Assembly (NCBI RefSeq): GCF_000482705.1
Contig: NZ_AXWO01000013.1
Location: forward strand, 1 to 64,000
Reading direction: 5' to 3'
Length of the DNA: 64,000 bases
From: Glycomyces arizonensis DSM 44726
Lineage (GTDB): Bacteria; Actinomycetota; Actinomycetes; Mycobacteriales; Micromonosporaceae
Shown here: positions 15,133 through 25,637 of the stretch, piece after piece
Layout of the letters: each line of letters starts with the position of its first letter
Position numbering within the stretch: position 1 is the stretch's first letter
Translations under genes and position numbers: made by a program
Notes under the pieces: model-generated
The model's database searches: none
What the model was told of the DNA's origin: nothing
The model's input: the letters and a program-made list of their open reading frames with translations, nothing else

Positions 15133-16254
15133 GTGACCGCTTCCCGCTCGGACTCGACCGCGCTGCTGCACGAGGTGTCGGCGGCCGTCGGCGCGATCAC
15201 CCGACACCTGTCGGTCGCGCAGGTGCTCGAGGTGATCGTCTCCTCGGCCCGGCGCCTCGTCGGCGCCGACTACGCCGCGATCGGCATCCCGGACGACGAG
15301 GGCGGCTTCGCCGAGTTCATCACCGACGGCATCGGCGAGGAGCAGCGCCTGGAGATCGGGCCCCTGCCCCGCCAGCACGGGATGCTCGCCGCGATCCTCA
15401 CCGAGACCGAGCCGATCCGCCTGCCCGACCTGCGCCGGGACCCGCGCTACCGGTGGTGGCCCAAGGCCCACCCCACGATGGCGGCGCTGCTCGGCGTGCC
15501 CATCCGCGACGGCGAGCAGACGCTGGGCATCGTGGTGCTCACCAACGACCTCGGCGGCCCGCTGTTCACCGAGGCCGACGTCGAGCTCATCGAGCTGATC
15601 GCCTCGCACGCGGCCATCGCGCTCACCAACGCGCGGCTCTACGAGCACAGCCGGGAGCTGACCATCGTCCAGGAGCGCAACCGGCTCGCCCGCGAACTGC
15701 ACGACGCGGTCATGCAGCGCCTGTTCTCCCTGCGACTGTCGGCGCGCGCGGCGGCGAAGCAGATCGACACCCACCCGGCGGCCGCCGCGGCGCGCATGGA
15801 GGAGGTCGAGACCCTCGCGGCCGACGCGATCGGGGAGCTGCGCGGCGTCATCGTCGAGCTCCGCCCGGCCGACCTGGACGCCCACGGCCTGGTCGAGACG
15901 CTGCGCCGCCACGTCGCCCTGCTCGACCGCCTGCACGAGACCGACGTCGCCTTCACCGTCCGCTCCCCGGTGGACCTCTCCCGCGACGCCGAGGTCGAGG
16001 TGCTCCGGCTCGTCCAAGAGGCCCTCGGCAACGCCATCCGCCACGCCAGAGCGCGAAGCGTCGCGGTCACCGTCGACTCCGAGCGCATCACCGTCGCCGA
16101 CGATGGCGAGGGCTTCGACGCCGACGAGGCCGCCACGCGCGGGCTCGGCCTGCTGTCGATGCGCGAGCGCGCGAAGGCCCTCGGCGGCGACCTCCGCGTC
16201 GCCACCGCCCCCGGCGAGGGCACCGTCATCACCCTGGAGCTGCACCGTGCATGA
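15133..16254 (+). CDS. GAF-domain histidine kinase, NarL class
   Basis: A 373-aa soluble kinase with an N-terminal GAF domain (about residues 25-170), a HisKA_3 dimerisation helix with phosphoacceptor His190 (ARELHDAVMQRLF) and an HATPase domain (LVQEALGNAIRHA, DDGEGF, GLGLLSMRERA). It resembles the DevS/NreB group but has one GAF domain and no evident haem or FeS motif. The GTG start is nearly leaderless. The cognate regulator overlaps the 3' end by 8 bp. Confidence 0.9.
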   Translation: MTASRSDSTALLHEVSAAVGAITRHLSVAQVLEVIVSSARRLVGADYAAIGIPDDEGGFAEFITDGIGEEQRLEIGPLPRQHGMLAAILTETEPIRLPDLRRDPRYRWWPKAHPTMAALLGVPIRDGEQTLGIVVLTNDLGGPLFTEADVELIELIASHAAIALTNARLYEHSRELTIVQERNRLARELHDAVMQRLFSLRLSARAAAKQIDTHPAAAAARMEEVETLAADAIGELRGVIVELRPADLDAHGLVETLRRHVALLDRLHETDVAFTVRSPVDLSRDAEVEVLRLVQEALGNAIRHARARSVAVTVDSERITVADDGEGFDADEAATRGLGLLSMRERAKALGGDLRVATAPGEGTVITLELHRA

Positions 16255-16864
16255 GCCGATCCGGCTGCTCATCGTCGACGACCACCCCGTGGTCAGGCAG
16301 GGCCTGCGCGCCTACCTCGAACTCGAAGCGGACTTCGACATCGTCGCCGAGGCCGGCGACGGCGAGGAGGCGCTGGCCGCCATCGGCGAGGACGAGCCCG
16401 ACGTGGTGCTCCTCGACCTCAAGATGCCCGGCACCGACGGCCAGGCCGTGCTGGAGCGCCTCGGCGGCGACGGGCCGCGCGTCCTGGTGCTGACCTCGGC
16501 CACCGACAGCGAGCGCGTGCCCGCCGCGATCGAGGCCGGAGCGGCCGGGTTCGTCTACAAGGACATCGACCCCGACGCCCTGGCCGCCGCCATCCGGACC
16601 GTCCACGCCGGGCAGACGCTGCTGTCACCCGCGGCGATGCGCGGCCTGATGTCCGGCGGCCCCGCCGCCGCCCCCGAGCTGACCCCGCGCGAGAGCCAGG
16701 TCCTCGGCCTCATCGCCAAGGGCCAGACCAACCGCCAGATCGCCCGGGCCCTCGGCGTCTCGGAGAAGACGGTGAAGACGCACGTGACGAACCTGCTGCG
16801 CCGAATCGGCGCCGCCGACAGGACCCAGGCGGCCCTGTGGGCCGTCCGCCACGGCGTCGGCTGA
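16247..16864 (+). CDS. NarL/LuxR-family response regulator
   Basis: A 205-aa regulator: receiver with DDH near residue 11, phosphoacceptor Asp57 (VVLLDLKMPG), the conserved Thr/Ser and Lys (LTSA, FVYKD), and a C-terminal LuxR helix-turn-helix (LTPRESQVLGLIAKG to KTVKTHVTNLLRRI). GTG 16247 overlaps the kinase stop, so the pair is one operon. Targets are not evident. Confidence 0.92.
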   Translation: MHEPIRLLIVDDHPVVRQGLRAYLELEADFDIVAEAGDGEEALAAIGEDEPDVVLLDLKMPGTDGQAVLERLGGDGPRVLVLTSATDSERVPAAIEAGAAGFVYKDIDPDALAAAIRTVHAGQTLLSPAAMRGLMSGGPAAAPELTPRESQVLGLIAKGQTNRQIARALGVSEKTVKTHVTNLLRRIGAADRTQAALWAVRHGVG

Positions 16865-22153: not shown

Positions 22154-22192
22154 AGCCGCGCCCGCCCGCGCTCGGCACGGGCGGGCGCGGCT
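22154..22192. terminator. Bidirectional terminator hairpin
   Basis: A perfect 15-bp GC stem with a 9-nt loop lies between the quinone oxidoreductase stop (22150) and the convergent cysteine-peptide ORF stop (22203). It would end both transcripts. Confidence 0.75.
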
Positions 22193-22202
22193 CGTGCCAC
22201 CG

Positions 22203-22250
22203 TCAGCCGCAGCATCCGGGGTCGCACGGGCAGCATGTCTCGTCGTTCAT
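22203..22250 (-). CDS. 15-residue cysteine-rich peptide coupled to merR
   Basis: A tiny ORF encodes MNDETCCPCDPGCCG, with five Cys in its last ten residues (CC-P-C-DPG-CC). Its ATG overlaps the MerR stop (ATGA), and a strong GGAGG at 22260-22264 lies 9 bases upstream inside the MerR coding sequence. A terminator follows. These are direct signs of translation. Clustered CC/CxC motifs suggest binding of a soft metal such as Zn, Cd, Cu or Hg, perhaps as a miniature metallothionein or a chelator modulating the regulator. No described family was recognised. Function is inference. Confidence 0.6.
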   Translation of the reverse strand: MNDETCCPCDPGCCG

Positions 22251-22684
22251 CGCGTCGCACCTCCCTCCTCGCATTGCTCGGGCGGGCACCAGTTCGCGGG
22301 CAGCGGCTCGCCGCAGCCCCCGTCCTCGACGGCCCGCAGCATCGACGTGAGCTGGGACCGCAGGCCCTCCAGCCTGGCGATCTCGGCGCCGATCTCGCCG
22401 AGGCGCCGCTCCAGGTGCTGCTCGGCCGGCTCGCACGGGCACACCCCGGTGTCGCGCACGGCCAGCAGGTCGGCGATGTCGCCCAGGCGCAGGCCCGCGC
22501 CCTGGCAGGCGCGGATGAACCGCGCCCGGTCGATCGCCTCGGCGCCGTAGCGCCGGTACCCGGCCGCGCTGCGCCCCGCGGGCGGGAACAGGCCCTCGCG
22601 CTCCCAGTGGCGGATGGTGTCGGCCGTGACGCCGACGGCCTCGGCGATCTTCCCGACGGTGAGTGTCGCTGTCGCGGTGGTCAT
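22247..22684 (-). CDS. MerR-family metal-responsive regulator
   Basis: A 145-aa MerR activator/repressor. The winged helix (LTVGKIAEAVGVTADTIRHWEREGLF) is followed by RYGAEAIDRARFI and a long dimerisation helix from about residue 90 to 118. Cys82 and Cys84 (CPC) precede the helix, and Cys124, Cys133 and Cys138 lie in a C-terminal loop, positions comparable to the metal site of ZntR/CadR-type proteins. It should sense a divalent soft metal. The start ATG is only six bases from the -10 element, so the mRNA is probably leaderless. No efflux pump or reductase adjoins; the only partner is the Cys peptide. Confidence 0.9.
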   Translation of the reverse strand: MTTATATLTVGKIAEAVGVTADTIRHWEREGLFPPAGRSAAGYRRYGAEAIDRARFIRACQGAGLRLGDIADLLAVRDTGVCPCEPAEQHLERRLGEIGAEIARLEGLRSQLTSMLRAVEDGGCGEPLPANWCPPEQCEEGGATR

Positions 22685-22690
22685 GGATCG

Positions 22691-22722
22691 AACGTAGACC
22701 TTGGAGCCGACTCCAAGGTCAA
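22691..22722 (-). promoter_or_regulatory. MerR-type promoter with perfect 10-bp inverted repeat
   Basis: On the minus strand a TTGACC -35 (22717-22722) and TACGTT -10 (22691-22696) are separated by an elongated 20-bp spacer. GACCTTGGAG and its exact complement (22697-22720, 4-bp centre) fill that spacer. This is the textbook operator geometry of MerR regulators and closely resembles the ZntR operator core CTGGAG...CTCCAG. It indicates metal-dependent autoregulation. Confidence 0.85.
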
Positions 22723-24954: not shown

Positions 24955-25392
24955 TCAGTCGAGGTCCGCTGGGAGAATCTCGAAGGAGCCGAAGGACTCG
25001 GTCAGCGGCGAGATGGCACGGAAATCGCGTTGGTCCAACGTGAAGATGCGGTTCGTCCGATACTTGGCGGCCAGCGCGACCCCGATGCTGTCGGCCAGAT
25101 CGAGGCGAAGGCCGACGTATTTGTTCCGCACTTCGTCGGCTGTGGCGAAGTCCTCGGGAGTGAGCTGCGCAAGCTGATGCACTCCGGTGTTCAGGTCCTC
25201 GATGATCGCCGAACTCACCTTCGCGGCCTGGTCGTAGCCGTAGTCCCGGCGGAGCATGTGGTCGAACTCGGTCATCACCAGCGGCGAGATATGGAGCGTC
25301 TCGGTCTGGAGGATCGTCGAAGCCTGCTCGTGACAGTCCTGAGCGGGATCGAAGGCCGCCAGGAGCGCTGAGGTGTCCGCGACGATGATCAC
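24955..25392 (-). CDS. vapC: PIN-domain toxin (VapC-like)
   Basis: A 145-aa PIN-domain ribonuclease. Acidic active-site residues are visible in IIVADTSALLAAF (first Asp), PLVMTEFDHML (Glu), LRLDLADSIGVALA (Asp pair) and FTLDQRDF. It forms a toxin-antitoxin pair with the upstream ribbon-helix-helix gene, whose stop overlaps this ATG by four bases. The RNA target is unknown. Less GC-biased than thrS, consistent with a mobile module. Confidence 0.88.
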   Translation of the reverse strand: MIIVADTSALLAAFDPAQDCHEQASTILQTETLHISPLVMTEFDHMLRRDYGYDQAAKVSSAIIEDLNTGVHQLAQLTPEDFATADEVRNKYVGLRLDLADSIGVALAAKYRTNRIFTLDQRDFRAISPLTESFGSFEILPADLD

Positions 25393-25637
25393 CGCTTGGA
25401 CACCCGTCGCTTGATGCTCTGGTAGATCGCTTCGTCCATCTCCTCAAGGCTGCGGCGCTTTCCTCCCGTGAGGACCGGATACGGGCGGTTCCGGCGCGGC
25501 CGGTCGGACTGGACTTCGGAGGCGAGGCGCTTCGCCGCGCGCCTCACGAACTCTGCCTTGGAGACCCCGAGGCGTCGAGCGGCCGCTTCGATCTCGGCTT
25601 CGAGCTCCTCCGAGAGGTACAGCGTCGTCTTGTGCAT
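25389..25637 (-). CDS. vapB: Ribbon-helix-helix antitoxin (VapB-like)
   Basis: An 82-aa protein whose N-terminal ribbon-helix-helix (KTTLYLSEELEAEIEAAARRLGVSKAEFVRRAA) should bind DNA, and whose basic C-terminal tail (RRSLEEMDEAIYQSIKRR) should wrap and inhibit the PIN toxin. It is first in the operon, as is usual for autoregulated antitoxins. A palindrome overlaps its start codon. Confidence 0.85.
   Translation of the reverse strand: MHKTTLYLSEELEAEIEAAARRLGVSKAEFVRRAAKRLASEVQSDRPRRNRPYPVLTGGKRRSLEEMDEAIYQSIKRRVSKR

Follow-up and report, generated by a model that had tools for sequence, protein, structure and literature searches.

The locus described here raises the question of what a metal-type MerR regulator controls when neither merA nor a metal ATPase gene adjoins it, and whether a very short cysteine-rich ORF at its stop codon could be the answer. 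In the window, by which we mean the whole 64-kb stretch of DNA that was analysed, the unit consists of the following features.

22691..22722, minus strand: MerR-type promoter/operator, with the -35 element TTGACC at 22722-22717 and the -10 element TACGTT at 22696-22691
22720-22697, minus strand: inverted repeat GACCTTGGAG-N4-CTCCAAGGTC with perfect 10-bp arms
22247..22684, minus strand: merR, a metal-type MerR regulator of 145 aa, assigned by Pfam MerR_1, MerR and MerR-DNA-bind and by the subfamily profile and tree
22260..22264, minus strand: GGAGG, the ribosome-binding site for the peptide, located within the last part of merR and 9 nt before the peptide ATG
22203..22250, minus strand: gene of the Cys-rich peptide MNDETCCPCDPGCCG, 15 residues, in ATGA overlap with the merR stop, assigned by sequence and conservation
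22154..22192, minus strand: G+C-rich hairpin 3' of the peptide, a possible terminator, perhaps common to the convergent quinone oxidoreductase gene

The earlier note had described the overlap of the two ORFs, the length of the peptide and the GGAGG nine bases before its ATG, and the coordinates agree with all three. It had also described a 20-bp promoter spacer filled by a perfect 10-bp repeat. The spacer has this length and the arms are perfect, but the 24-bp repeat starts inside the -35 hexamer and fills the spacer plus four bases. The window has, in any case, the 19-20-bp spacer with a palindromic operator that characterizes metal-responsive MerR regulators. The proposed terminator after the peptide corresponds to a strong hairpin with an 18-pair G+C stem (-51.6 kcal/mol, fold z -2.9), but it has no U tract and a consensus terminator scan of the locus found no terminator there. 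The divergent upstream neighbour of merR is a thrS-like gene. Regarding the claim that no pump or reductase adjoins the unit, this is true of merA and of metal ATPases, but a PIG3-type quinone oxidoreductase gene converges on it from the opposite strand. Just beyond the thrS-like gene (24955-25637, minus strand), a ribbon-helix-helix protein gene is followed with a 4-base overlap by one for a PIN-domain protein, a VapBC-like toxin-antitoxin pair, and a GAF histidine kinase is paired with a LuxR-type response regulator at 15133-16864 (plus strand).

The window MerR scored above the Pfam cut-offs for PF13411 (66.2 bits), PF00376 (57.4) and PF09278 (51), having both the MerR helix-turn-helix and the MerR-DNA-bind domain, and it is 94% identical to the MerR of Glycomyces tenuis. 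Since it fell below all four curated NCBIfam equivalog cut-offs, namely ZntR (76.6 of 168 bits), CadR-PbrR (70.2 of 151), mercury MerR (74.1 of 151) and CueR (60.2 of 147), it is none of these regulators. By sequence, its nearest relatives of known structure are of the mercury and cadmium types. Candidate metal ligands are C84, C124 and C133 and, additionally, C82 and C138; the protein has a CPC loop and a Trp-Cys tail. In alignments, C84 falls on the loop Cys of 4ua1, a Bacillus MerR, and of CadR 6jgf. Towards the C-terminus, C124 and C133 are a pair with nine residues between their positions, the same spacing as in MerR and ZntR. The protein therefore shows the metal-binding Cys loop, that is, a loop Cys together with a C-terminal Cys pair, and from these residues we infer that the signal is a divalent metal of the soft kind and not Cu(I).

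Some MerR proteins are redox sensors, and the quinone oxidoreductase is the convergent neighbour of the unit in Glycomyces; both points would suit a thiol module with MerR as the sensor of disulphide or electrophile stress and the peptide as a sacrificial thiol. However, the metal-type MerR-DNA-bind domain with its Cys loop argues against it, as do the nearest relatives of known structure, which are mercury and cadmium regulators, and the PIG3-type oxidoreductase family was seen as a neighbour at Glycomyces loci only. We consider such a redox function unlikely.

When short patterns derived from the window MerR were scanned against 84,980 species genomes, 33 loci were obtained, all of them actinobacterial by record title. 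With a subfamily profile built from 19 members, scores ranged from 176 to 234 bits for complete subfamily members, from 134 to 165 for a second clade, which comes from other classes of the phylum, and from 115 to 133 for outgroup MerRs; L019, a partial subfamily member, scored 132 bits. A member with at least 176 bits was present in 6 of 394 genomes of the class sample and in 42 of 397 of the order sample (own genome included), one further genome of the latter having only a copy with a frameshifted MerR (L154). Within the genus, merR orthologs occur in 16 of the 21 other Glycomyces genomes and the remaining five lack the regulator, showing that the unit is patchily distributed.

In order to be counted, a peptide ORF had to start between -150 and +95 of the merR stop and to have 8-45 aa with at least 4 Cys and at least 15% Cys. 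Such an ORF was found in 70 of 78 distinct subfamily loci, counting one locus per distinct merR end and leaving out L065 and L163 (the own locus once more) as well as L019, which has the peptide and a partial MerR. The 70 peptides have 11-30 residues and 5-10 Cys, at a Cys fraction of 0.21-0.55 (mean 34%), and 54 of them satisfy a stricter rule (at least 5 Cys and 30% Cys), 16 falling below it. Their starts lie from -17 to +20 of the merR stop in 68 cases, most often at -10, -1, +5 and +8. In the two remaining loci the start is at -74 or -72, and the merR frame continues over the peptide. For 67 of the 70 loci, the start that was chosen has a GGAGG-type site at a distance of 3-13 nt, a count helped by the start-choosing script, which favours starts with a ribosome-binding site. 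The 15-18-residue form is common to the window and three other Glycomyces loci (L002, L003 and L004). The earlier note had made its reading depend on the ORF, its ribosome-binding site or its Cys pattern being conserved at homologous merR loci, and these counts bear the reading out; the peptides keep their Cys-richness and their position, but not the exact CC-x-C-x3-CC spacing.

Applied to the outgroup, the same rule found no Cys-rich ORF at any of 25 distinct MerR loci; a merA-like gene with an identity of at least 45% is present at 18 of them. In equal-size windows from the flanks of the 78 loci, both strands considered, an ORF was obtained in 16 of 1840 cases and never with a ribosome site. 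Under the strict rule there were none in 117.5 kb of control loci and none in 461 kb of flanks, near-duplicates included, and among the ORFs of 8-60 aa in the whole window, none but that of the peptide reaches 5 Cys and 30% Cys. Selection was measured on the longer Glycomyces forms and on a second family, not on the 15-residue form of the window. Twelve Glycomyces loci encoding the 28-29-residue form gave a pN/pS of 0.28 in frame (dN/dS 0.23), compared to 1.34 and 1.53 for the two alternative frames. Ten Cys columns were constant in all twelve, and pairwise nucleotide identity was 0.97, then about 0.33 just beyond the stop codon. The second family, with six loci (three of identical DNA), gave a pN/pS of 0.13. 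This in-frame selection points to a translated, selected product in those forms. A chance or decaying ORF without a product could be suspected because the ORF is very short, its sequences differ strongly between families and one ortholog is broken. Nevertheless, its frequency at merR against that in outgroup loci and matched controls, together with the in-frame purifying selection, refutes this at the level of conservation and makes it extremely improbable. On this comparative evidence, the peptide is a real gene that recurs with its sensor across many actinobacteria.

A tree of 120 rows, from which L154 and L019 were excluded, contained a clade of 74 with 70 peptides, the second clade of 16 with 11, a clade of 4 of an Arg/Lys type without peptide, and an outgroup of 26 rows without peptide; these 26 include the identical proteins L157 and L158, while our other outgroup counts use 25. 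Peptide presence on this tree, in which many forks are weakly resolved, requires eight gains or losses versus a mean of 33 in shuffles. The second-clade figure refers to 11 of 16 rows, as a group of 17 had included the frameshifted L154, and the short peptide is absent in the other 5. Two second-clade loci have longer Cys-rich proteins after merR, with repeated CxCGC or CGCGCxCC-like blocks (L105, 98-110 aa, and L108, 81 aa), and three others (L097, L099 and L102) have two different Cys micro-ORFs in tandem, one of a form common to different genera, CPCCGCPCGDCGG, and the other of the CDCGPECPC type or similar. Read by eye, the ORF that is ATGA-coupled to another MerR relative, L098, is thioredoxin-like and contains a CPVC motif, which makes it a further candidate for a small thiol effector.

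A sigma-70 scan limited to spacers of 16-18 nt found no promoter at the window's merR. The strict pattern TTGA..TAnnnT was present in 56 of the 78 subfamily loci and had no match in the other 22; the spacer was 20 bp in 56 of 57 matches, and in 42 of the 57 the first ATG or GTG lay 6-7 nt past the -10, which fits a leaderless start. As the ATG of the window's merR is only 6 nt from the -10, its message is probably leaderless. We then looked for further operators in the own genome, a 5.05-Mb draft in 49 contigs. At up to 3 mismatches, a threshold that weaker sites would escape, there is a single site, at merR itself, so that at this stringency merR plus the peptide is the sole predicted target and a wider regulon is disfavoured. 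The view of the earlier note that the peptide is the apparent effector is strengthened by this result. A looser operator pattern, applied to 48 other genomes, gave 8 further sites in Glycomyces, of which 3 could be placed beside another MerR paralog by coordinates, and more in G1096, G1106 and G1114. In 12 of the 48 genomes this pattern gave nothing at all, and extra targets may exist there.

The gene context was surveyed in 81 peptide loci, using genes called by an in-house GC3 rule instead of annotation, flanks of about 1.5-3 kb, and L140 and L154 as further exclusions. The nearest downstream gene was convergent in 57 loci and on the same strand in 22, within 50 nt in four of these (L057, L095, L109 and L119); in 2 none was seen. 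No merA- or metal-ATPase-like gene was found in the examined flanks of the 70 peptide loci, except for one 33% match at L137. A conserved neighbour gene was also sought among the 25 largest groups listed, which came from noisy six-frame ORFs, and rejected, since all but the first were confined to one lineage. The members of the first group lie on the strand opposite merR, in mixed positions over and beside it, and are tentatively read as antisense ORFs. Folding after the peptide was strong (fold z below -2, 50 mononucleotide shuffles each) in 29 of the 81 loci and is not a general feature.

These data bear on whether the ORF could be a translational attenuator that responds to cysteine, in the manner of the leaderless polycysteine ORFs that exist in mycobacteria (Canestrari 2020, as cited in PMC9094748). 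It is likewise short, rich in Cys codons and actinobacterial, and the loci with a same-strand gene downstream, above all the four with a gene within 50 nt, would allow it. Against this, an attenuator should lie upstream of the gene that it controls, whereas the next gene is convergent in the window as in most of the loci surveyed, which counts against a general leader role. Moreover, the ORF has its own SD, selection acts on its amino acids, Asp and Glu are enriched, and no Rfam match was found. An attenuator is therefore very unlikely in our opinion. Among the three roles that the earlier note had offered, the translational sensor is disfavoured, as the peptide ORF is the last of the unit in the window and in most relatives, and that of a chelator or buffer, judged from sequence, is favoured.

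The composition of the peptides is in line with a chelator. The 79 distinct peptides of both clades have 35% Cys, 16% Asp, 9% Gly and 8% Glu (Asp plus Glu 24%), few hydrophobics, and about 1% of Phe, Trp and Tyr together. CC (153) and CxC (158) dominate their Cys steps, with 36 of CxxC. Small, very Cys-rich and poor in aromatics, they resemble metallothioneins. No Pfam or NCBIfam family scored above cut-off for nine of the Cys-rich proteins (seven short peptides of 20 residues or more and two of 81-98 aa), so that 'metallothionein' is here a label of composition. The five Cys in the 15 residues of the window's peptide can hold about one metal ion, making it a small sink unless it is highly expressed.

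The third role was that of a metal carrier to the regulator, and the eight peptide-less subfamily loci are informative in this respect. Six have Arg or Lys at the tail Cys position, two of these on plasmids and divergent from a P-type ATPase. One (L008/L036) is half-lost: the second half of the peptide is gone and the frame continues to 196 codons. The last (L140) is degenerate: it is the second copy of its genome, and its MerR is shortened. By eye, the Arg/Lys-type loci L149, L150, L152 and L153 lie near MFS-transporter-, polyketide-synthase-, ligase- or amino-acid-permease-like genes, as if these regulators had been adopted by biosynthetic clusters. The peptide could be a detachable ligand of MerR that hands over or strips metal and sets the threshold of the switch rather than detoxifying bulk metal. 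Of the 70 loci with a peptide, 68 have Cys at the Trp-Cys tail position (L063 has Leu instead of the Trp; the Cys of L125, L069 and L138 was taken from a separate residue table), versus Arg or Lys in 6 of the 8 loci without peptide (Fisher p 3e-6, kinship ignored). In addition, a Cys segment is in frame with MerR in two lineages (L066, counted among the 70, and L106), and the C-terminal CCHH tail of CueR provides auxiliary Hg ligands according to PMC6899792. Yet the Arg/Lys loci without peptide form only two clades and hence represent few events, and the peptide is retained in L050 and L159, although Tyr or Leu replaces their tail Cys. Both fusions have an internal ATG, at an SD-like site in L066 and after a G-rich stretch in L106, so a free peptide may still arise, and the peptides share little but Cys and acidic residues, which would argue against one docking surface. 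We hold a detachable ligand to be possible but not probable. A related idea, equally tentative and also rather improbable to us, is that MerR and its co-translated peptide form a two-piece, self-resetting sensor whose regulon is itself, the fusions and the covariation with the Trp-Cys tail being traces of this.

The reading that we prefer, and regard as fairly probable, is that of a self-contained module in which an autoinduced soft-metal MerR sensor has an ultra-short metallothionein-like peptide as its sole effector. With its loop and C-terminal cysteines, the MerR dimer would hold a soft divalent metal, for which Zn, Cd, Pb and Hg are the likeliest candidates, and the metal-loaded regulator would untwist its own 20-bp-spacer promoter and switch on the two-gene message. 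From this message, merR would be translated leaderless and the peptide via the strong GGAGG coupled to the merR stop. The stronger ribosome site should yield an excess of thiolate peptide over added sensor, and by tying up the metal as a thiolate complex, the peptide could both protect the cell and reset the sensor in a negative feedback. The peptide would thus probably be a very small metal trap, with its own sensor turning on its production when needed.

If this is true, the whole sense-and-respond circuit fits in about 500 bases, and the peptides are among the smallest genetically encoded metal-binding effectors, measured against known metallothioneins. Their genes would represent an actinobacterial class that is easy to overlook at this size, and a regulator without a neighbouring pump or enzyme could have a hidden effector. 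The unit would allow a direct test of the minimum length of a useful metallothionein and offer a compact part for metal biosensing and bioremediation.

Regarding known systems, MymT is a mycobacterial copper metallothionein of about 53 residues under the CsoR-type RicR. It is small, actinobacterial and Cys-rich like the peptide, a metal protein by prediction only in our case, but differs in its length, in RicR and in copper. The cyanobacterial SmtB-SmtA pair consists of an ArsR-type repressor and a metallothionein of about 56 residues with a folded multi-metal cluster. Here, too, one metal sensor and one small Cys-rich protein (with metal binding predicted in our case) share one locus; unlike that pair, the unit has a MerR-type activator in the same message as an effector of 11-30 residues. 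The actinobacterial mercury-type MerRs near merA have the same fold but are an outgroup in the tree, with the peptide absent in 25 of 25. The mycobacterial polycysteine ORFs are likewise short, Cys-rich and missed by gene callers but, according to PMC9094748, regulate a downstream gene, while in the window no further ORF of the unit follows the peptide, which has a ribosome site of its own. In PMC12301328, which also names SmtA, the MerR-family regulator CadR of Pseudomonas aeruginosa turns on a small unannotated metal-binding protein, Zrd, upon Zn or Cd; Zrd, for which two zinc-ribbon domains are predicted, is encoded in a separate intergenic region. The unit resembles CadR-Zrd in joining a MerR-family regulator to a small unannotated target, its metal response and metal binding being predictions; it differs in that the peptide shares the regulator's own message and that no other target was found in the own genome. 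Searches of the open PMC literature, which comprises neither subscription papers nor preprints, found no description of a MerR-coupled Cys peptide. The unit differs from the pairs SmtB-SmtA and CadR-Zrd in its activator type, its single message, its apparent sole target and the size of its effector.
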